A DNA stretch of 40,172 nucleotides, from the NCBI GenBank assembly GCA_927405585.1, contig CAKMJS010000117.1, forward strand, positions 1 to 40,172. The letters are read 5' to 3'. The position numbers were made by a program, and so were the translations under genes. The stretch comes from an uncultured Desulfosporosinus sp. Its GTDB lineage: Bacteria > Bacillota > Desulfitobacteriia > Desulfitobacteriales > Desulfitobacteriaceae. The first letter of the stretch is position 1, and each line of letters starts with the position of its first letter. Positions 8,894 to 40,172 of this stretch are shown here, in pieces. The notes beneath the pieces were generated by a model. It was not told the origin of the DNA and ran no database searches. It saw only the letters and a list, made by a program, of their open reading frames with translations.

Positions 8894-10530
8894 TTCCCCC
8901 GATCCGTAGGACAATTTGCTCTTTCACCAAAATGGAGCAGCCCACCGTAGATACCTCGGGTTAACTCTGTTTCACGCAGCTGCGCTCCCCAGAGCACCGG
9001 CCGGATTCCCTTCCAGCGTTGATCAAGAAAGCCCTGAAGTTCGTCTCGGAACGGAGCGTATTTATCCTTTTCACGCCTCAACAATGGCAACGCTCGATAG
9101 CCACAGAATGCACCTTGGCAAGTTCCCATGCCTAATCTGGTTTTTCGCCGGATATCTGAAAGAAAATGCACATCTTCATCCGAGACAGCCCTTTCTACTT
9201 CGGCTAAACTAACCATTTCACATTCGCACAACATTTGACCTTTCGCGGGATCTGACTCGATCTTACGTAAAATGTTCTCAGCATCCGCACCAACTCGCTC
9301 CAGCATCTTCGAAACAGCTCCACAGGGCAACACCTTTTCGGCAAGTTCCTTGAGAGCAGAGGATAATACCGGTAAAATAGTCTCTTCGGCCGTTCGGCAG
9401 GGCACCAATTTTCCCAGCTTTCGAGTTACCAGATCCGCAGTTCTTTCTGCCATAAGCCGGTAAGTGGTAAACTTGCCACCCACAATACTTACAAAACCTT
9501 CGATTCCTTGTTCTTCGTGATCAAGCAAGGCAAACCCCCGACTCACCTCTCGACCTTTTTCCGCTAATACAGTATCACTCTGAGTTTCCTGATACAGAGG
9601 TCGCACTCCTGCAAAGGCACGAATCACCCGGAAACGTTCAATTTCCGGTAACAGACCTTCACCCAAATTCATAAGTCTTTGTACATCTGCAACGGCAGGG
9701 GCATTGTCGCTTGGAGAGTCAACAAGGCCTGATGTTGTACCAAACACCGTTATGCTTTCGTGAGGAACAAAGATATCACCATCACCCGGTGGTCGCAGAC
9801 GATTGATTACCCTCTGGAATAATCGATGGTTAAACGCCAGCAAAGTCCCTTTATCTGCCACTACATCAAGAGTAACACCCACTGAGGACGCTAACTTTGG
9901 CGCCCAAGCCCCAGCAGCATTCACCAGCATGGGCGAAGTCGCTGTAAACGGTTCGCCCGTTTTCAGTAGACGTCCACTCACCCCAGTGATTCGATTTCCT
10001 TCTCGGACTAGATTATCGACCTGATGATAGCTTTTATATACTCCACCATAAACAGTTGCCGAGTGAGCATTAGCCCACACCAATTTAAAGCCATCCACCG
10101 CTGCATCGGGAACTTCAAACACTCTTAGAGCATCCTGTCTCAGCAGCGGTTCTTGAGTATAGGCTTCCTGCAAGGAGATTTCTCGCACGGAAATAGAGGC
10201 TTCTGCACATTTTTGCACCCATTTTTCAGTGTATGCTGGATCGTCCTCAGCCATTTGAACGAACCATCCCCCACAATTCACAATACAACTGGGGGCTATT
10301 CGTTTGAGAATACTGTTCTCTTGCGAACATTCTGCAGCAGACAAGGAATCCTTCACTGCGTAACGAGCACCACTATGCAAAAGCCCATGAAAGCGAGAAC
10401 TTGTACCATGTGCCAAATCCCCCTGTTCTAATAATAGAGCGTTGACCCCACGCATGCTCAAATCGCGCAGAAGGCCGACCCCCGTAGCTCCTCCACCAAT
10501 AATGATAACTTCTGCATGATATTCAATCAT
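8890..10530 (-). CDS. glpA: anaerobic glycerol-3-phosphate dehydrogenase subunit A
   Basis: GlpA oxidises sn-glycerol-3-phosphate to dihydroxyacetone phosphate using FAD. The 546-residue protein starts MIEYHAEVIIIGGGATGVGLLRD with a clear FAD-binding motif, includes GGKFTTYRLMAE typical of GlpA/GlpD, and ends with a BFD-like [2Fe-2S] region containing CECE and GTCQGAFCG. The ATG has a GGGAGA site 7 bases upstream. The upstream frame of a truncated sugar permease ends in an ATGA overlap with this start, so a read-through transcript from a lost operon may once have covered it. Confidence 0.94.
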   Translation of the reverse strand: MIEYHAEVIIIGGGATGVGLLRDLSMRGVNALLLEQGDLAHGTSSRFHGLLHSGARYAVKDSLSAAECSQENSILKRIAPSCIVNCGGWFVQMAEDDPAYTEKWVQKCAEASISVREISLQEAYTQEPLLRQDALRVFEVPDAAVDGFKLVWANAHSATVYGGVYKSYHQVDNLVREGNRITGVSGRLLKTGEPFTATSPMLVNAAGAWAPKLASSVGVTLDVVADKGTLLAFNHRLFQRVINRLRPPGDGDIFVPHESITVFGTTSGLVDSPSDNAPAVADVQRLMNLGEGLLPEIERFRVIRAFAGVRPLYQETQSDTVLAEKGREVSRGFALLDHEEQGIEGFVSIVGGKFTTYRLMAERTADLVTRKLGKLVPCRTAEETILPVLSSALKELAEKVLPCGAVSKMLERVGADAENILRKIESDPAKGQMLCECEMVSLAEVERAVSDEDVHFLSDIRRKTRLGMGTCQGAFCGYRALPLLRREKDKYAPFRDELQGFLDQRWKGIRPVLWGAQLRETELTRGIYGGLLHFGERANCPTDRGK

Positions 10531-24492: not shown

Positions 24493-24644
24493 ATTCAATC
24501 CTCCTGTCGACAGACTCCTTTCCAGCAGGAGATATTACAGTTTCCCATAATACCCGAGTGCCATTTTTACGGGCACTTGTCTGGTCACCGTAGCTTAGTG
24601 CTTTAGGTAATCCAGCTTTGGAGCAATGACGCAATTATTTAGTT
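24493..24644 (-). ncRNA. structured moaA leader, candidate molybdenum-cofactor riboswitch
   Basis: The transcribed leader has GTGCC/GGCAC, TATTA(TGGGAAACTG)TAATA with a GGAAAC tetraloop-like turn, CTCC/GGAG and a GTCGACAGG segment, all before the attenuator. Multi-helix structure, position and terminator fit a transcription-type riboswitch. The Moco RNA family is the obvious candidate upstream of moaA, but I cannot verify the consensus here. Confidence 0.5.
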
Positions 24645-30798: not shown

Positions 30799-33480
30799 CT
30801 AACTAATTTTTGAGATCTGCACGCCACAGACTTTATACTCATACGTTTTGGTGACTTTATCATACGCCCCATTGGTTAAGACGTTGGTTGGTGTCTCCAA
30901 GTAATGAAGTGTCATAAAGACCACTCCCTCAGGAACTCGCTCGGTGATGACGATCTTCGTATCCAGTTCTCCTCGACGAGACTTAACGTGGACCCGCTCA
31001 CCGTCTTGGAAGCCAAGCCGTTTGGCATCCGCCGGATTGATTTCTGCCAACTCTTCTGGAGAATAGGTTTCCAGGGCGGCTGAATTTCTAGTCATGACGT
31101 TATAGTGTGCCAGTTTGCGTCCCGTGGTGAGTAAGAATGGGTACTCAGCATCCGGCGATTCGTTAGGCTCTTGATTCTCGATTGGCATGAAGAGCCCTTT
31201 ACCACGAGTACAGGTTCCTTCGTGCAAGAACTTCGTACCCGGATGGTCACAGGATAGAACTGGCCACTGCAAACCATGGTTCTCTAGGCGTCCGTGGGTA
31301 ACTCCAGCGTATTGAGGCGCCAAGGAGGCTACTTCTAACATGATGTCTGCTGGAGATTGATACGTGAATGGGTATCCCATACGAGTCGCCAGTTCACAGA
31401 TAATTTCCCAATCCGGCTTAGAGTTGCCGATTGGCTTAATGGCTTGATTGACTCTTTGCACTCGTCGCTCAGTATTTGTAAAGGTGCCGTCTTTCTCTGC
31501 AAAACTAGCTCCAGGAAGTACAACATCTGCTAGCTTAGCTGTTTCCGACATAAAGATGTCTTGCACTACAAGGAAATCAAGGGCCTCAAGGCCTTTGCGA
31601 ACATGGTTCGCATCGGCATCCGTCAGCACTGGATCCTCACCGAAAACATACAAGGCCAGTAGATTCTTACTGTGCGCTGCTTCAAACATATCTGGAATCA
31701 TAAATCCTGGTTTAGGGCTGAGTGAAACACCCCAGGCAGCTTCAAATTTAGCCTGTGCTGCTGGACTTACGATTGGTTGGTAACCTGGATAGACGTTGGG
31801 TAGTGCTCCCATGTCGCAGGCACCTTGAACATTATTTTGCCCGCGTAATGGGTTCACTCCGGAACTTTCTTTACCCAAATTGCCAGTGAGTAAGGCGAGA
31901 TTCGCCAAGCTCATGACATTATCTGTGCCGTAAGTGTGTTCCGTGATCCCTAAGGTATAAAAGATTTGTGCAGGATCTGTGGTGGCATACAGTCGAGCCG
32001 CTTCGACGAGTTGATCGACAGGAACACCCGTGATTTGACTAGCCACTTCAGGTGGATACTTTGCGATCGTCTCCAAGAATTTTTCGTCAAACCCTTCCGT
32101 ACGTTCTTCGATGAACGCGCGGTTTTCCCAGCCATTGGCGAGAATAATGTTCATCATCCCGTTGATCAGCGCAATATCTGTTCCCGGACGAAGTCTTAAA
32201 TAAAGATCTGAGTACTCAGCGAGCTGAGTTTCTCGAGGATCGACGACGATCAGCTTTGCCCCATTTGCTAGGGCTTGTTTCATTTTAGTTCCAATGACAG
32301 GGTGAGCTTCGGTCGTATTTGACCCGATAACAAACATTAGTTTAGTATTAGGGATTTCATTAATGGAATTCGTCATTGCTCCGGAACCGAATGATATGGC
32401 CAGACCGGCCACAGTGGGAGCGTGTCAGGTCCGGGCGCAGTGGTCGATGTTATTGGTCCCGACCACTGCGCGCATGAATTTTTGCATGACAAAATTATCT
32501 TCGTTGGTACAACGGGCAGAGCTTAAAGCCGCAATGGCATCTGCTCCGTAGTTATTTTTGATTTCCTGGAACTTCGTCGCCACTAAATCAAGGGCTTCAT
32601 CCCATTCTGCAGGGACAAACACTCCATCTTTCTTAATCAACGGGGTCGTCAGGCGATTCGGACTATGAATCATATCCGTTCCGAAGCGTCCTTTGACGCA
32701 AAGTGCCTTCCCGTTCACCGGTGCATCAGGGTTAGAGGTCACGCCAATGACTTTGCCGTCTTTAACATTTAAGTCAAAGTTACACCCTGTTCCACAAAAC
32801 GGACACGTGGTTTGAACTTTCTTGATTTCCCAAGGGCGTCCCTTGCCGACCATGTGTTTTTCGGTCAACGCGCCAACTGGACAGACCGAGACACAAGAAC
32901 CGCAGAAATCACAATCTGACTCATTATAGGGTAAATTAAAGGCTGGACTTACCTGCATATTAAAGCCACGAAATGAATAATCCAAAATGCTTTTCCCTTG
33001 GATTTGAGAACACGCCTTGATGCATTTTCCACACAAAATACATTTATTGGGATCTCTCAAAATAAACGGATTTCCGTCATCAATAGGAAGTTTACGTTTC
33101 TCCCCTTGATAAATTTCACCTGTTACACCATAATCATAAGCATATTCCGCCAAAAAGCAGTTTCCCATTTTTTGGCAAGTCATGCAATCTAACGGATGAT
33201 TCGCCACCAACAATTCCAAAATTGTTTTGCGTGCTGCTCGGACTTTAGGACTTTGAGTTTGAACCACCATGCCCTGCCATACTGTAGTTCTGCAAGCTGG
33301 GGGAAGATTATGGTTTCCTTCGATTTGAACCACGCACAAACGGCAGGCGCCGTCAGAGGTAAGCTCTGGGTCATAACACAAGGTAGGAATTTGGATATCA
33401 TGCATGCGACAGGCTTCAAGTATGGACGTTCCCTTCGGAACGCTTACTTCGCACCCATCGATAGTTATTGTAATCAACAT
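30799..33480 (-). CDS. fdhA: selenocysteine formate dehydrogenase, catalytic alpha subunit
   Basis: This enzyme oxidises formate to CO2 or reduces CO2. The 893-residue chain starts at the ATG at 33480 (AGGAGGT 7 bases upstream). It has an N-terminal [2Fe-2S] domain (CYDPELTSDGACRLC), a NuoG-like cluster region, two ferredoxin clusters (CILCGKCIKACSQ, CDFCGSCVSVCP), a further cluster CPFCGTGCNF, then the molybdopterin domain. TGA at 32427-32425 is codon 352 in NNIDHCARTUHAPTVAGLA, exactly where E. coli FdhF and relatives have selenocysteine, so the two ORFs are one gene. The hairpin after it has a GGTCT loop. It is the last gene of the operon with NuoF- and NuoE-like subunits. Confidence 0.96.
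32397..32411 (-). promoter_or_regulatory. SECIS hairpin of fdhA
   Basis: TGGCC(GGTCT)GGCCA begins 13 bases after the TGA, and the GGTCT loop begins 18 bases after it. E. coli fdhF has AGGTCT in the same place, about 17 bases from its UGA. Confidence 0.88.
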
Positions 33481-33499
33481 CAATGTACCTCCTCTCAAT

Positions 33500-35290
33500 T
33501 TATGCCTGGACAACCGCATCAAATTTACATTTATCCACACAAGTTCCACATTTGATGCAATCGTCTTCATTAACCACATACGGTTTTTTCTTCTCCCCCG
33601 TAATACAACTCACCGGACAGTTTTTAGCACAGAGCCCGCACCCTTTGCATTTTTCTGCATCGATTGTATAACTAAGCAAGGCAGAACAGGAATGCGCTGG
33701 ACACTTATGCTCAAGAATATGCGCCTCGAACTCATGTCTAAAGTATTTGAGAGTTGCAAGAATGGGGTTTGGAGCACTATTACCCAATCCACAAAGTGAA
33801 GTCTCTATAATAGTGTAGGAAAGATTTTCCAAGATGTCGATATCTTCCAATTTTCCCTCGCCTTTAACAATTCTATCTAGGATTTCGTACATTCGTTTTG
33901 TACCTTCTCGACAAGGAGTGCATTTTCCACAAGATTCTTTCTGAGTAAAGTCTAAAAAGAAGCGAGCTATATCTACCATGCAAGTGGTCTCATCCATAAC
34001 CACGAGTCCACCTGAGCCAACCATAGCCCCAGCTTTCGTTAATGTATCATAATCCACCCGGATATCCAGCATCTCCTCAGGTATACACCCACCAGAAGGA
34101 CCCCCTATTTGCACTGCTTTAAAAGCCTTGCCATTTTGAATTCCTCCCCCAATGTCAAAGATGATCTCCCGGAGTGTCGTTCCCATAGGAACTTCAACCA
34201 AGCCTGTATTGTTAACCTTTCCGGTCAGGGCAAATATTTTTGTTCCTCTACTATTATCTGTCCCGTATTGGGTATACCAATCTGCTCCGTTTAGCAAAAT
34301 ATGAGGAACATTCGACCAAGTTTCTACGTTATTAATAACTGTTGGTTTACCAAACAAGCCACTGACTGTTGACCGGGGTGGTCGCATACGGGGCATTCCA
34401 CGTCTACCTTCAATAGAAGCCATCAACGCTGATCCTTCTCCACAGACAAAGGCTCCGGCGCCAGCGAAAACATTCAGTTTAAAGTTTAAACCCGAGTTGA
34501 GAATATTATTTCCTAAGAAGCCAGCTTCCTCGGCTTGCCGAATTGCAATTTCCAAGTTCTTAATGGCCAAGGGGTATTCTGCTCGGCAATAAACGTATCC
34601 TTCATCGACACCCATGGCATAGGCACCAATCAACATTCCCTCGATCACGGAATGCGGATCCCCCTCAAGGACGCTACGATCCATAAAAGCTCCGGGATCC
34701 CCTTCGTCACCATTACAGATAATATATTTCTTATCGCTCGGCGTTGGGAGGATAGCGGCCCACTTCTTACCCGTTGGAAAGCCCGCACCGCCACGACCGC
34801 GAAGCCCAGATTTTCTAACTTCTTCTAGGGTCTCCGCCGGTGACATCTCTTTGAGTACCTTCTTTAAAGCAGCGTATCCGTCCCGGGCAATGTATTCTTC
34901 AATCTTCTGGGGATCAATAACACCGCAATTTTTCAGAACAATCCGATGTTGCTGTGCAAAAAATGGGACTTCAGACATCGTACTTAATGGCTTTTGAGTT
35001 ACCTGATCTAGAAGCAGAAGGCGTTCAACACGTTCGCCTTTCATAATATCTTGAGCCACTATTTCTGCAATATCCTCCGGTTTAACTGAGCAATATAAGA
35101 CCTGCTGTGGTTCAATAACCACCGTCGGACCTTTTTCACAAAACCCTTGGCACCCAGTACCAACAATGCTCACGGTTTCTTCGAGTCCTTGCTTGTTGAG
35201 CTCCAATTTCAAGGCATCAATAAGTTTATGGGCCCCCGATGATGCACATCCTGTCCCCGCACAAACTAAAATCCGTTGGTTCTCTGCCAT
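33500..35290 (-). CDS. NuoF-like NADH-binding/electron-transfer subunit of formate dehydrogenase
   Basis: The 596-residue protein has an N-terminal thioredoxin-like [2Fe-2S] segment (CAGTGCASSG and GTGCQGFC), a NuoF core with GRGGAGFPTGKKW and NGDEGDPGAFMDR (FMN and NAD binding), the SLBB region, the cluster CGKCTPCREGT, and two C-terminal [4Fe-4S] motifs (CKGCGLCAKNCP, CIKCGTCVDKCK). This order is typical of HydB/FdhB-type subunits in NAD-dependent or electron-bifurcating complexes. It lies between nuoE-like and fdhA, 19 bases before the latter. ATG with GGGGGAT site. Confidence 0.93.
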   Translation of the reverse strand: MAENQRILVCAGTGCASSGAHKLIDALKLELNKQGLEETVSIVGTGCQGFCEKGPTVVIEPQQVLYCSVKPEDIAEIVAQDIMKGERVERLLLLDQVTQKPLSTMSEVPFFAQQHRIVLKNCGVIDPQKIEEYIARDGYAALKKVLKEMSPAETLEEVRKSGLRGRGGAGFPTGKKWAAILPTPSDKKYIICNGDEGDPGAFMDRSVLEGDPHSVIEGMLIGAYAMGVDEGYVYCRAEYPLAIKNLEIAIRQAEEAGFLGNNILNSGLNFKLNVFAGAGAFVCGEGSALMASIEGRRGMPRMRPPRSTVSGLFGKPTVINNVETWSNVPHILLNGADWYTQYGTDNSRGTKIFALTGKVNNTGLVEVPMGTTLREIIFDIGGGIQNGKAFKAVQIGGPSGGCIPEEMLDIRVDYDTLTKAGAMVGSGGLVVMDETTCMVDIARFFLDFTQKESCGKCTPCREGTKRMYEILDRIVKGEGKLEDIDILENLSYTIIETSLCGLGNSAPNPILATLKYFRHEFEAHILEHKCPAHSCSALLSYTIDAEKCKGCGLCAKNCPVSCITGEKKKPYVVNEDDCIKCGTCVDKCKFDAVVQA

Positions 35291-35806: not shown

Positions 35807-36400
35807 CTAACTTTTAAATTTAAAGTTGTATACCTTATTCTCTGTGATTAACATAGACATTTTAGCATCGTACTTGCCAACCGGTACTTGTGGAATTACT
35901 TGGCATTCAAAGCCTAAAGCAATCCTTGGTATTAAAGGATTTACCAGCATAAAGAAGCGGTCATAATAGCCTCCCCCATACCCTAAACGATTCCCTTGTA
36001 GATCAAACCCAGAACCCGGTACGATAATCAAATCGATTTCCGAGGGTTCCACTACTCCAAGCGACAATTTGGGTTCGCGAATTCCATAAGTTCCTGGTTC
36101 GATATCCTGGGTCAGATCACACACTTCGATCGGAAGGAGTACATTATGAGCTGCACAGCGGGGCAATACTAGCCTTTTCTTAGCTGCGATCGTTGCCTCC
36201 GCCATGGCCGTCGTCTCGACCTCGTCACGAAAATTCAGAAATAACATCACGGTTTGAGCCCTTTGGAACTCGGGTAAATCCATAAGTCTTTGCTGAATAA
36301 GTTGGCTTTTTCTTTGTCTTTCTTTCTCCCCTAAGGAGGTCCGTTGACATAGACACGCTTCGCGCACTCCCGCCTTTATCGACTGTTGGTCCTCACTCAT
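35807..36400 (-). CDS. 5-formyltetrahydrofolate cyclo-ligase family protein
   Basis: These enzymes turn 5-formyl-THF into 5,10-methenyl-THF with ATP. The 197-residue protein has EPGTYGIREP, then IIVPGSGFDLQGNRLGYGGG and YYDRF, the family core. It is first in the operon, 21 bases before the NuoE-like gene, which connects one-carbon folate chemistry to formate. The family start MSEDQQSIKAGVREAC fits, with an AAGGGT site. Some members are not true cyclo-ligases, so activity is probable, not proven. Confidence 0.92.
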   Translation of the reverse strand: MSEDQQSIKAGVREACLCQRTSLGEKERQRKSQLIQQRLMDLPEFQRAQTVMLFLNFRDEVETTAMAEATIAAKKRLVLPRCAAHNVLLPIEVCDLTQDIEPGTYGIREPKLSLGVVEPSEIDLIIVPGSGFDLQGNRLGYGGGYYDRFFMLVNPLIPRIALGFECQVIPQVPVGKYDAKMSMLITENKVYNFKFKS

Positions 36401-36646: not shown

Positions 36647-36821
36647 TTATCCACCTTCTAAAATCAAGTTCTACCGCTATATTTCTTAGTTATCCACATT
36701 ATCCACAGGCACTGTGGATAATGTGGGCCAAAAATGACCGTTTTCACCTAAAAGCGCAAACCTGCTTCTATGACTTATCTACAGACTTATCCACATTATC
36801 CACAACTCCACCTTATCCACA
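36647..36821. other. cluster of eight DnaA-box-like 9-mers
   Basis: Six exact TTATCCACA sites lie at 36690, 36699, 36787, 36796 and 36813 (plus strand) and at 36713-36721 (minus strand). One-mismatch copies lie at 36647 (TTATCCACC) and 36775 (TTATCTACA). Two pairs are head-to-tail with no gap (TTATCCACATTATCCACA). That is far above chance, but no dnaA, dnaN, rpmH or gidA/parA gene is in the window. It could be a DnaA-titrating locus or a control region for the fdh operon. Confidence 0.85.
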
Positions 36822-36863
36822 GAACATACGCTCCAATCTCTTCTCGATCTGCCAAGTCTTAAC

Positions 36864-37230
36864 AAATGGAGCAAGGAAATCTAATTCCTCGCTCCATTTC
36901 TCGCCCAAGTTGAGCATGTTAGTTTTGTGGACGGTTCTTCAAGTTGCATGAGAGCGTTTAGTGATTTTTAACCATCATTAGGTTCAGGTCGATCGGAAAA
37001 TCATTATAATGTAGAATAGGACCAACATCGGTGCAAGAATCAGGGACGGTTCTGCAACTTGCATTTCATCTTGGGCTTCAAGGGAATACGTCAAAAGCAG
37101 CGAGGGAATCTACTTCCTCGCTGCTTTTCGTATGCTAGCTGGTCAAATGGGGGGACGGTTCTAACTTGCATTTTCACAAAACGAAGCGGGATATCCAAGT
37201 CTGCGCTATGCTTTGTGAAAATGCAAGTTA
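36864..37230. repeat. REP-like hairpin array with GGACGGTTCT motifs
   Basis: It contains a hairpin AAATGGAGCAAGGAA/TTCCTCGCTCCATTT (36864-36899), a similar one AAAAGCAGCGAGGGAA/TTCCTCGCTGCTTTT (37093-37128) and a 19-base perfect inverted repeat TAACTTGCATTTTCACAAA (37162-37180 against 37212-37230). The GGACGGTTCT motif occurs at 36929, 37044 and 37153, with AACTTGCAT nearby each time. No gene fits here. Confidence 0.75.
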
Positions 37231-37234
37231 CTGT

Positions 37235-37450
37235 TCACTTGTATTCCAAAACGGTAACCTTCCAGCCATAAGGTATTCCTGATACTCGATCTGGAACAGG
37301 ATTTTTAAAAGCTAAATATGGGGCTGTTTCTGCTGGTCTTATTAGTATCGGTGATACAAGTGCTGGTGATGATTTAGGCAATAACCATATCCCAATGAGT
37401 AATACGACGGATAGCACAATAAAAATAATTAATGACTTTGTATTATTCAT
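37235..37450 (-). CDS. small single-pass membrane protein, related to 37900-38388
   Basis: From the ATG at 37450 the protein is 71 residues, MNNTKSLIIFIVLSVVLLIG then IWLLPKSSPALVSPILIRPA. The segment MN..K...IFI.LS.VLLIGI.LLPKSS is the same as in the 37900-38388 product, so the two are paralogues, this one lacking most of the N-terminal part. The frame extends 22 codons upstream with a short similar segment. An AAGAGGAAG site is near. Probably a truncated duplicate. Confidence 0.5.
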   Translation of the reverse strand: MNNTKSLIIFIVLSVVLLIGIWLLPKSSPALVSPILIRPAETAPYLAFKNPVPDRVSGIPYGWKVTVLEYK

Positions 37451-37674
37451 GTTAATCTCTTCCTCTTTAGCGTTTGTAATACACCTAACAACCAGATCGT
37501 CGATAAGCAGATCCAAACCTTTTTTTAAGATTAATACTCCTTCTCTATACCAACAGCCATAAGATTATGACGATTATCGCTAACGTTAACAGTCTTTTTC
37601 ATCCTTCCGTGCAAGGTTAACCTCCAAGTACCACTTGTTGAAGAAGCTGAAGTCTCGATTTTGCGCAACTACGG

Positions 37675-37860
37675 TTACTCAAAGTTTTGATTGCTGAATA
37701 TGATGGTCGACCCTTCATCTTTTATTATACGATAGTCCACTCCATCCGATAGTCGCTCATTGTTCCCAACCCATTCAGCTGGTTTGCCATTGACATAACC
37801 AACCGTGTAGATTCCGTTAGAGATCATGATTTCACAGGTCATCCCATATTCAAAGTTCAT
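37675..37860 (-). CDS. small hypothetical protein
   Basis: The 61-residue product MNFEYGMTCEIMISNGIYTV is soluble, with no known motif; a few acidic and aromatic positions are regular. The ATG has a GAGAGGA site about 9 bases upstream. It lies between the two related membrane genes. Evidence for expression is limited to the start region. Confidence 0.45.
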   Translation of the reverse strand: MNFEYGMTCEIMISNGIYTVGYVNGKPAEWVGNNERLSDGVDYRIIKDEGSTIIFSNQNFE

Positions 37861-37899
37861 TTAAAAAAATCCTCTCACCTCTATAAGTTTCTGGTTGAG

Positions 37900-38388
37900 T
37901 CACTCTTCCGAGCCCTTGCTCAAACCTTGTAAACCGTAACTGTTACCTTGTTGCTGATCTGCTGATGCTGATGCTGTAATTGATGCTGGTACAAATACTT
38001 GTGATGATTTAGGCAATAAACCTATACCTATGAGTAGTACAATTGAAAGCGCAATAAAAATGGCAGCTGCCTTTCTACTATTCATTTCTTTAGCTTTTGT
38101 TACCTTAGTAAATGCTTGCCATTGTTTTAGTGTTCCACCTTTGATTGTAATTCGCTCGGCCCACTCCCCCTCAGTGCAAGTTCTAATGTCAATATCAAAT
38201 GCCTCCTTAAACAGCTTAACAATCGACCCTCGAAGTATAGCCTTATCACTTAGATCAGGGCTTAAATAATCATTAGCCGCCAACAGGTCTATTATTTTTG
38301 GACTTTCAACTGGAACTATGAAGTCGGGGTACTCCTTATCTTTTATAGATAACGGTTTATATTGGCGCTTCACGCTTTTCGTTTCCAA
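37900..38388 (-). CDS. membrane-anchored hypothetical protein
   Basis: The 162-residue protein has a cytoplasmic-type N-terminal part of about 105 residues (ending KVTKAKEMNSRK), one transmembrane segment (AAAIFIALSIVLLIGIGLLP) and a short outer tail rich in Ser, Ala and Gln. The TTG start at 38388 follows a strong GGGGGAGGT at 6 bases. The membrane part matches the 37235-37450 protein. No function is evident; it sits between transposon-like sequence and the small gene group, in a likely accessory region. Confidence 0.65.
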   Translation of the reverse strand: METKSVKRQYKPLSIKDKEYPDFIVPVESPKIIDLLAANDYLSPDLSDKAILRGSIVKLFKEAFDIDIRTCTEGEWAERITIKGGTLKQWQAFTKVTKAKEMNSRKAAAIFIALSIVLLIGIGLLPKSSQVFVPASITASASADQQQGNSYGLQGLSKGSEE

Positions 38389-39028: not shown

Positions 39029-40172
39029 ATGTCTGAATTCAATCTATTGACTAATACTGATTGGCGAATATTAAATGTGATACGCCAAAAAGGGGAAGTC
39101 GATCGTGGTTATATAATAAAAGTAACAGGCTCAACATTGGCAACTGTATCCTCAAGTCTTAAGCATCTGCTCGGAAATAAAAGTGATTTAAAGACTGCCT
39201 TGATTACGAAAAAGGAAATGCCTAAAAGAGAAACCAAAGCCGGTCCTGCCCCGATTTTATATAGCGTTATACCTACTATCGGATATTTCTTGGGTATTTC
39301 GGTGGGTCTATCGCACACAAGGTTAGCACTAATCGATTTCGATTTTCAGGTTGTTGAACTAAAGTCTAACTATGGAGAAGAATTTTGCTTCGAAACGGGA
39401 ACACAGATGAGTACGGTTGTCCATAATGTTAGAAAACTATTGATAAGCCTTAGAGAGCAAAGACCTGAAATGGTACAAAAGTTACTTGGAATTGGATTTG
39501 CTTGTGAAGGTGCAGTAGATTGCGTGAATAAAGTTGCTAAATATTCTCCTGCTATGCCTTTAGTAAAGGAACTAAGTATTAAGGATATCTTAGGATCTAG
39601 TGAAATGGATTATATAGAAAAAAATAATTTATCGTTGGCAATGGACAACGTACCAAATTGTATCGGCACTGCTGAACTCCTGGTGGGAAATCTGTCGGAA
39701 TATTATTCTAAGAATGATAAGAATGACAAAGATGATCATGAAGATAAGAATTACAGGGCAAGAAATGAGAAGTACATTATTTGCCTAAATATTGGAACTG
39801 AGATTTCTGTATCCCTCATCTTAGATGGCAAAATTTATAGAGGTATGTCAAACTATTCAGGTTGTATCGAGCATTTCTTTGTTGATGTTGACTATGATGA
39901 GTTGAAAACGATTCCAGGATTTAGTTTTAAAGACACAGATCCCTACCGGCAACTGGGATTTTTAATTGCAAACTCTATTGGAAAAATAGATAAACGGAAC
40001 ACTTTACACAATTTAACTAAGGATGAACTGAATAAAGTCTATGAATACTCAGGTACTATCATCGGCAAAAGCTTAAGCTACATAATCAATCTTCTTAATC
40101 CTGAACTTATAGTGCTAACAGGGCATAATGCTGACGCTTTCTATGACCGTTTTTATCCGCAAATACGCGAGA
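39029..40172 (+). CDS. ROK-family transcriptional regulator, partial (runs off the window)
   Basis: At least 381 residues are visible. An N-terminal winged helix (WRILNVIRQKGEVDRGYIIK, then STLATVSSSLKHLL) is followed by a ROK domain: YFLGISVGLSHTRLALIDFD, GIGFACEGAVDC, IICLNIGTEISVSLILDGKI and NLLNPELIVLTG. Kinase-type residues and the CxCGxxGC zinc motif are degenerate or absent (YSGCIEHFF), so it is a regulator, not a sugar kinase. ATG at 39029 or at 39023, both near GAGGAG. A TATACT box at 38969 may be its -10. The 3' end is cut by the window edge. Confidence 0.75.
   Translation, partial: MSEFNLLTNTDWRILNVIRQKGEVDRGYIIKVTGSTLATVSSSLKHLLGNKSDLKTALITKKEMPKRETKAGPAPILYSVIPTIGYFLGISVGLSHTRLALIDFDFQVVELKSNYGEEFCFETGTQMSTVVHNVRKLLISLREQRPEMVQKLLGIGFACEGAVDCVNKVAKYSPAMPLVKELSIKDILGSSEMDYIEKNNLSLAMDNVPNCIGTAELLVGNLSEYYSKNDKNDKDDHEDKNYRARNEKYIICLNIGTEISVSLILDGKIYRGMSNYSGCIEHFFVDVDYDELKTIPGFSFKDTDPYRQLGFLIANSIGKIDKRNTLHNLTKDELNKVYEYSGTIIGKSLSYIINLLNPELIVLTGHNADAFYDRFYPQIRE

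Follow-up and report, generated by a model that had tools for sequence, protein, structure and literature searches.

A cluster of DnaA boxes after tsaD in Desulfosporosinus recurs in most sampled families of its phylum and suggests an old brake on replication initiation

The window, that is the whole stretch of 40,172 nucleotides analysed here from an uncultured Desulfosporosinus sp. (contig CAKMJS010000117.1 of assembly GCA_927405585.1), carries at positions 36647-36821 eight DnaA boxes of the type TTATCCACA, six perfect and two with one mismatch, at the positions and in the numbers given in a preliminary description of the locus. The exact boxes start at 36690, 36699, 36713 (minus strand), 36787, 36796 and 36813. 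The first box of the array (36647-36655, plus strand) is the one-mismatch form TTATCCACC, whose last base varies within the genus alignment. A doublet of boxes, TTATCCACATTATCCACA, follows at 36690-36707 (plus strand) and, 5 nt past it, an inverted box (36713-36721, minus strand) whose placement is identical throughout the genus and in Dehalobacter-type relatives. The other one-mismatch copy, TTATCTACA (36775-36783, plus strand), retained within the genus and read as TTAT[CT][AT]ACA in other families, lies 3 nt ahead of a second doublet (36787-36804, plus strand), the centre of a phylum-wide module, past which stands a further box (36813-36821, plus strand) followed by (A/G)AACA. The described layout of two abutting doublets 97 bp apart, one with an inverted third box, was borne out. 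Other families share with the genus a further conserved element, AAA(A)CC(G/C), a little over 10 nt ahead of the variant box; it is not a DnaA box and is represented here by AAACC at 36760-36764 (plus strand).

Such packing of several boxes in a short region, as in DnaA-box clusters (DBCs) of the B. subtilis type, is well above chance: the 40-kb window holds seven exact boxes against 0.43 expected, a number reached in none of 100 shuffles, in agreement with the origin- or titration-like density first noticed. A genome-wide count gave 56 exact boxes in 181 contigs (4.48 Mb), six of them within these 175 bp, and the 18-bp doublet TTATCCACATTATCCACA was found at this single locus of the Desulfosporosinus genome (0 for its backwards control).

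The cluster lies between genes, with tsaD (gcp) upstream of it and the 5-FCL/fdh operon downstream. The first gene past it encodes 5-formyltetrahydrofolate cyclo-ligase (5-FCL; 35807-36400, minus strand; PF01812), its start 247 bp from the cluster and its protein relatives, with up to 86% identity, all from Desulfosporosinus; the gene is a conserved neighbour of the cluster in the order and adjoins it across the genus. The initial placement of the cluster upstream of the fdh operon is therefore correct but incomplete, since 5-FCL comes first and the opposite side is flanked by tsaD, at a distance of about 5.2 kb. The last 141 bp of the window (40032-40172, no strand assigned) match, base for base, the end of the tsaD-bearing contig C32, and this overlap was found nowhere else. 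On C32, tsaD ends near position 50711 and reads toward the cluster. Because the contig ends share this unique overlap, the order from tsaD to the cluster is kept, with about 5 kb inserted; a rearrangement moving tsaD to another contig away from the cluster was rejected on the same grounds. At the level of the order, the arrangement is amidohydrolase-tsaE-tsaB-rimI-tsaD, cluster, 5-FCL-nuoE-nuoF-fdhA (tsaE, tsaB and rimI, like comFC below, were named by inspection and not by family search).

The insertion on the tsaD side contains, right of the cluster at 36863-37129 and 36929-37064, two 38-nt hairpin-like repeats (CAAATGGAGCAAGGAAATCT...) together with repeats of GGACGGTTCTnCAAsTTGCAT. Further on (37235-38388, minus strand), two short reading frames have in common a 127-nt repeat at 72% (37324-37450 and 37959-38085), and a Pfam search with the longer of the two proteins gave no match. 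On the other side, the two fdhA reading frames at 30799-33579 (minus strand) encode a single protein, residue 385 of which is specified by an in-frame TGA; the context, HCART-U-HAPT, fits a selenocysteine formate dehydrogenase. A Moco (molybdenum/tungsten cofactor) riboswitch at 24499-24635 (minus strand) scored 49.8 bits, exceeding the Rfam cut-off.

All Desulfosporosinus loci have the same cluster layout. In an alignment of 22 sequences from the genus, some of which may be one species fetched from two collections, the commonest base had a mean share of 97.5% in the boxes, 69.5% in the spacers and 57% in the flanks, so that conservation at the locus is concentrated in the DnaA boxes. Absence from close relatives, which would have spoken against a functional cluster, was not what we found: the cluster occurs across the whole genus and well outside it.

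To test the position of the cluster, we located tsaD in 199 genomes and retrieved 78 regions, from 71 families, in a sample that leans on one genome per family; three or more boxes with no more than one mismatch each inside 250 bp counted as a cluster. A cluster lay in the first kb after tsaD in 46 of the 78 genomes (42 of 71 families), and in none upstream of or inside the gene (0/78 each). Downstream of tsaD the reversed motif gave 0 and so did 11 of 12 permuted motifs, the exception being ACATTATCC (8), which overlaps the doublet junction. Exact boxes numbered 116 in 112 kb downstream of tsaD against 1 in 117 kb upstream. Orientation was equally marked, with 232 boxes opposite to tsaD and 25 in the same direction, and 35 of 85 exact doublets lay within 1.3 kb after tsaD, all 35 opposite to it. 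By the same definition, 32 of the 78 sampled genomes were without a tsaD-side cluster, which is therefore dispensable or has moved in many lineages.

The commonest spacings between boxes in the phylum sample were 9, 12, 21 and 42-44 bp. Alignment of 23 modules gave AAGTTAT[CT]AACAGA-N-TTATCCACATTATCCACAG, with an AAA.CC element upstream and one further box. A sequence-only model, R1, was built from 21 of these 23 modules, the window sequence being one of the 21 training rows; its best match in the genome under study is the stretch 36742-36837 (plus strand; E = 1.7e-16). At the loose cut-off of E up to 0.1, R1 found matches in 187 of the 199 genomes. Within the list of top matches, the best one of each genome was located downstream of tsaD in 38 of 66 cases, and for genomes not used in training the figure was 20 of 44; every one of the 43 tsaD-side matches listed was on the opposite strand. 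Past the last box, the alignment also revealed a LexA-operator-like sequence, AAAACAnnnGTTC, that abuts the last DnaA box in several families and could reflect a regulatory overlap or chance within one clade.

The cluster is distant from the replication origin. As initially noted, dnaA, dnaN and rpmH are not nearby; dnaA is on another contig (C10), flanked by looser box clusters of its own. The host DnaA is normal, with its DNA-binding domain (PF08299), and boxes of the same type serve at the host oriC. Among complete relatives, the distance from dnaA to the tsaD-side cluster ranges over 0.10-0.47 genome and is not fixed. Over 22 complete genomes whose tsaD-side clusters were verified or presumed, the median was 0.19 genome, with 17 of 22 under 0.25 (one genome, G106, placed by tsaD position only, and G250 and G106 with rounded genome lengths), and tsaD may be origin-proximal for other reasons.

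With boxes locked in spacing and orientation, a position downstream of tsaD across the phylum and a location away from oriC, the element is a real, ordinary-looking yet deeply conserved DnaA-box cluster. Among the three options originally offered, a datA/DBC-like regulatory cluster is the one we favour, the position being that of a known B. subtilis cluster downstream of gcp (PMC4447404); Gcp is TsaD (PMC12472773). We consider it likely that the cluster is a DBC separate from oriC, the positional ortholog of the one at gcp-ydiF in B. subtilis, and that through cooperative binding of ATP-DnaA it titrates the initiator and so restrains initiation; the assignment relies on position and reported binding. 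In vitro, the B. subtilis region that follows gcp and ydiF ranks among the eight sites to which DnaA binds most strongly, and the gcp/ydiF region has 10 sites, with a Kd of 0.15 uM for ATP-DnaA and 0.33 for ADP-DnaA and 16-fold more DNA bound with ATP-DnaA at 55 nM (PMC4447404). Both clusters, the B. subtilis one being region 4 of Smith and Grossman 2015, are located directly downstream of gcp (tsaD), here with about 5.2 kb of inserted DNA intervening, outside oriC and with many DnaA boxes. They differ in the next gene, convergent ydiF in B. subtilis and 5-FCL in Desulfosporosinus; high DnaA affinity has been reported for the B. subtilis cluster (PMC4447404). Deletion of six clusters outside oriC, gcp-ydiF among them, led to early initiation in B. 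subtilis, and restoring one gave partial relief (PMC5295017). DnaA-box clusters near oriC of Streptomyces coelicolor, a member of a different phylum, are likewise reported to repress untimely initiation, in work cited in PMC4585315.

By analogy with B. subtilis, DnaA, preferably ATP-DnaA, would bind the head-to-tail boxes cooperatively. Replicated early in the cell cycle, the site would lower free DnaA: each new copy would take up DnaA shortly after initiation, and the next initiation would thereby be delayed. The tsaD-side cluster would presumably act alongside others, among them the comFC/hpf-secA cluster. The arrays after tsaD in most sampled families of the phylum suggest an old brake on the start of chromosome copying. 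DnaA-box clusters outside oriC in Gram-positives are known mainly from B. subtilis and are given a minor role in reviews; a position and module common to dozens of families would imply that selection has acted for a long time, and the shared site offers a concrete target, where the same deletion can be tested across several tractable species. The element type itself is already known, and as far as the open literature searched shows what is new is that position and module are conserved phylum-wide, which appears to be unreported: searches of open-licence papers returned no report of the site's conservation in the phylum and none for gcp-ydiF with DnaA.

Regular spacing and the AAACC element exceed what plain titration needs, which leaves some room for a datA- or DARS-like reading. 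We tentatively entertain, as a possibility of lower probability, an ancestral phylum-wide DnaA-control module (a weak box, the AAACC element, TTAT[CT][AT]ACA, a box doublet and a further box) conserved after tsaD, with a related version between comFC and hpf-secA; it would build a specific DnaA complex with a second protein and change the nucleotide state of DnaA, as a Gram-positive counterpart of datA/DARS. The narrower proposal of a datA-like element, in which DnaA on the head-to-tail boxes would hydrolyse ATP and be inactivated catalytically and not merely held, we regard as rather unlikely. E. coli datA works by ATP hydrolysis of DnaA (PMC5295017), the tight tandem boxes at fixed spacing go beyond the needs of simple titration, and the extra conserved AAACC element together with the long, fixed distance of 42-44 bp points to a defined nucleoprotein complex, but datA requires IHF, which B. 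subtilis does not have, and no such DnaA-ATP regulator is known there (PMC13220808). datA resembles the Desulfosporosinus cluster in being a DnaA-box cluster outside oriC, in the origin-proximal part of the chromosome, and it restrains initiation as the latter probably would; it differs in its need for IHF, its promotion of DnaA-ATP hydrolysis and its five boxes over about 1 kb (PMC5295017), and the neighbouring genes show no sign of homology. E. coli DARS1 and DARS2 are also short loci whose DnaA boxes keep their spacing and whose positions are conserved (PMC4585315), but they reactivate DnaA-ADP and have a three-box core and different neighbours. According to reviews, B. subtilis has neither datA nor DARS and its regulators of DnaA-ATP/ADP exchange are not known (PMC13220808). 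The shared site raises the question of datA- or DARS-like control of DnaA in Bacillota.

The other regulatory option first put forward, a DnaA-controlled promoter region, here for 5-FCL and the fdh operon and tying one-carbon metabolism to replication, appears improbable as a general function. The gene past the cluster runs in the direction of tsaD in 37 of 46 genomes, 5-FCL stays next to the cluster in the genus, and DnaA acts as a repressor of some genes close to clusters in B. subtilis (PMC4447404); but the identity of that gene varies between families and it is convergent in 7 of 46 genomes, as at B. subtilis gcp-ydiF, and a shared promoter function is for this reason unlikely. The 247 bp to the 5-FCL start also argue against it, as does a promoter scan that gave nothing above chance, promoter-like matches being no more frequent than in shuffles. 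A local effect of DnaA on 5-FCL/fdh is nevertheless conceivable. That the cluster is a cis-element of tsaD (3' UTR, terminator or antisense promoter) is very unlikely: its position tracks tsaD across the phylum, but insertions part the two in a number of genomes, the one under study and that of D. fructosivorans among them, the cluster remaining with 5-FCL, the scan used found no terminator-like site above chance, and conservation falls mainly on the boxes. Least probable is a second or relic replication origin (the "unusual origin part" initially considered), since, for all the origin-like box density and the AT-rich DNA on the 5-FCL side, the locus lacks the dnaA-dnaN neighbourhood and GC-skew switch of an oriC, cumulative skew continuing to fall through the cluster, the clusters of complete relatives are 0.1-0.5 genome from dnaA, and a DnaA-trio repeat run was not seen by eye in the cluster sequence.

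The probable DBC after tsaD is not the only recurrent box site. Many other R1 matches fall between comFC and hpf-secA (for example L198, L205, L214, L258, L263 and L274). In the 5.6 kb before hpf, at least three boxes within 250 bp were found in 17 of 38 complete genomes (10 of 27 families) and nine control motifs gave 0, the 38 genomes having been picked for completeness, several with a match known beforehand, so that 17/38 is not a random-sample estimate. A third group in Desulfosporosinus, between argH and pncB-nadE, consists of two boxes 12 bp apart plus weaker ones, and is found on contig C107 of the genome under study (10131-10183) and at L217 (4071-4165), L218 (4153-4247) and L233 (4032-4127).
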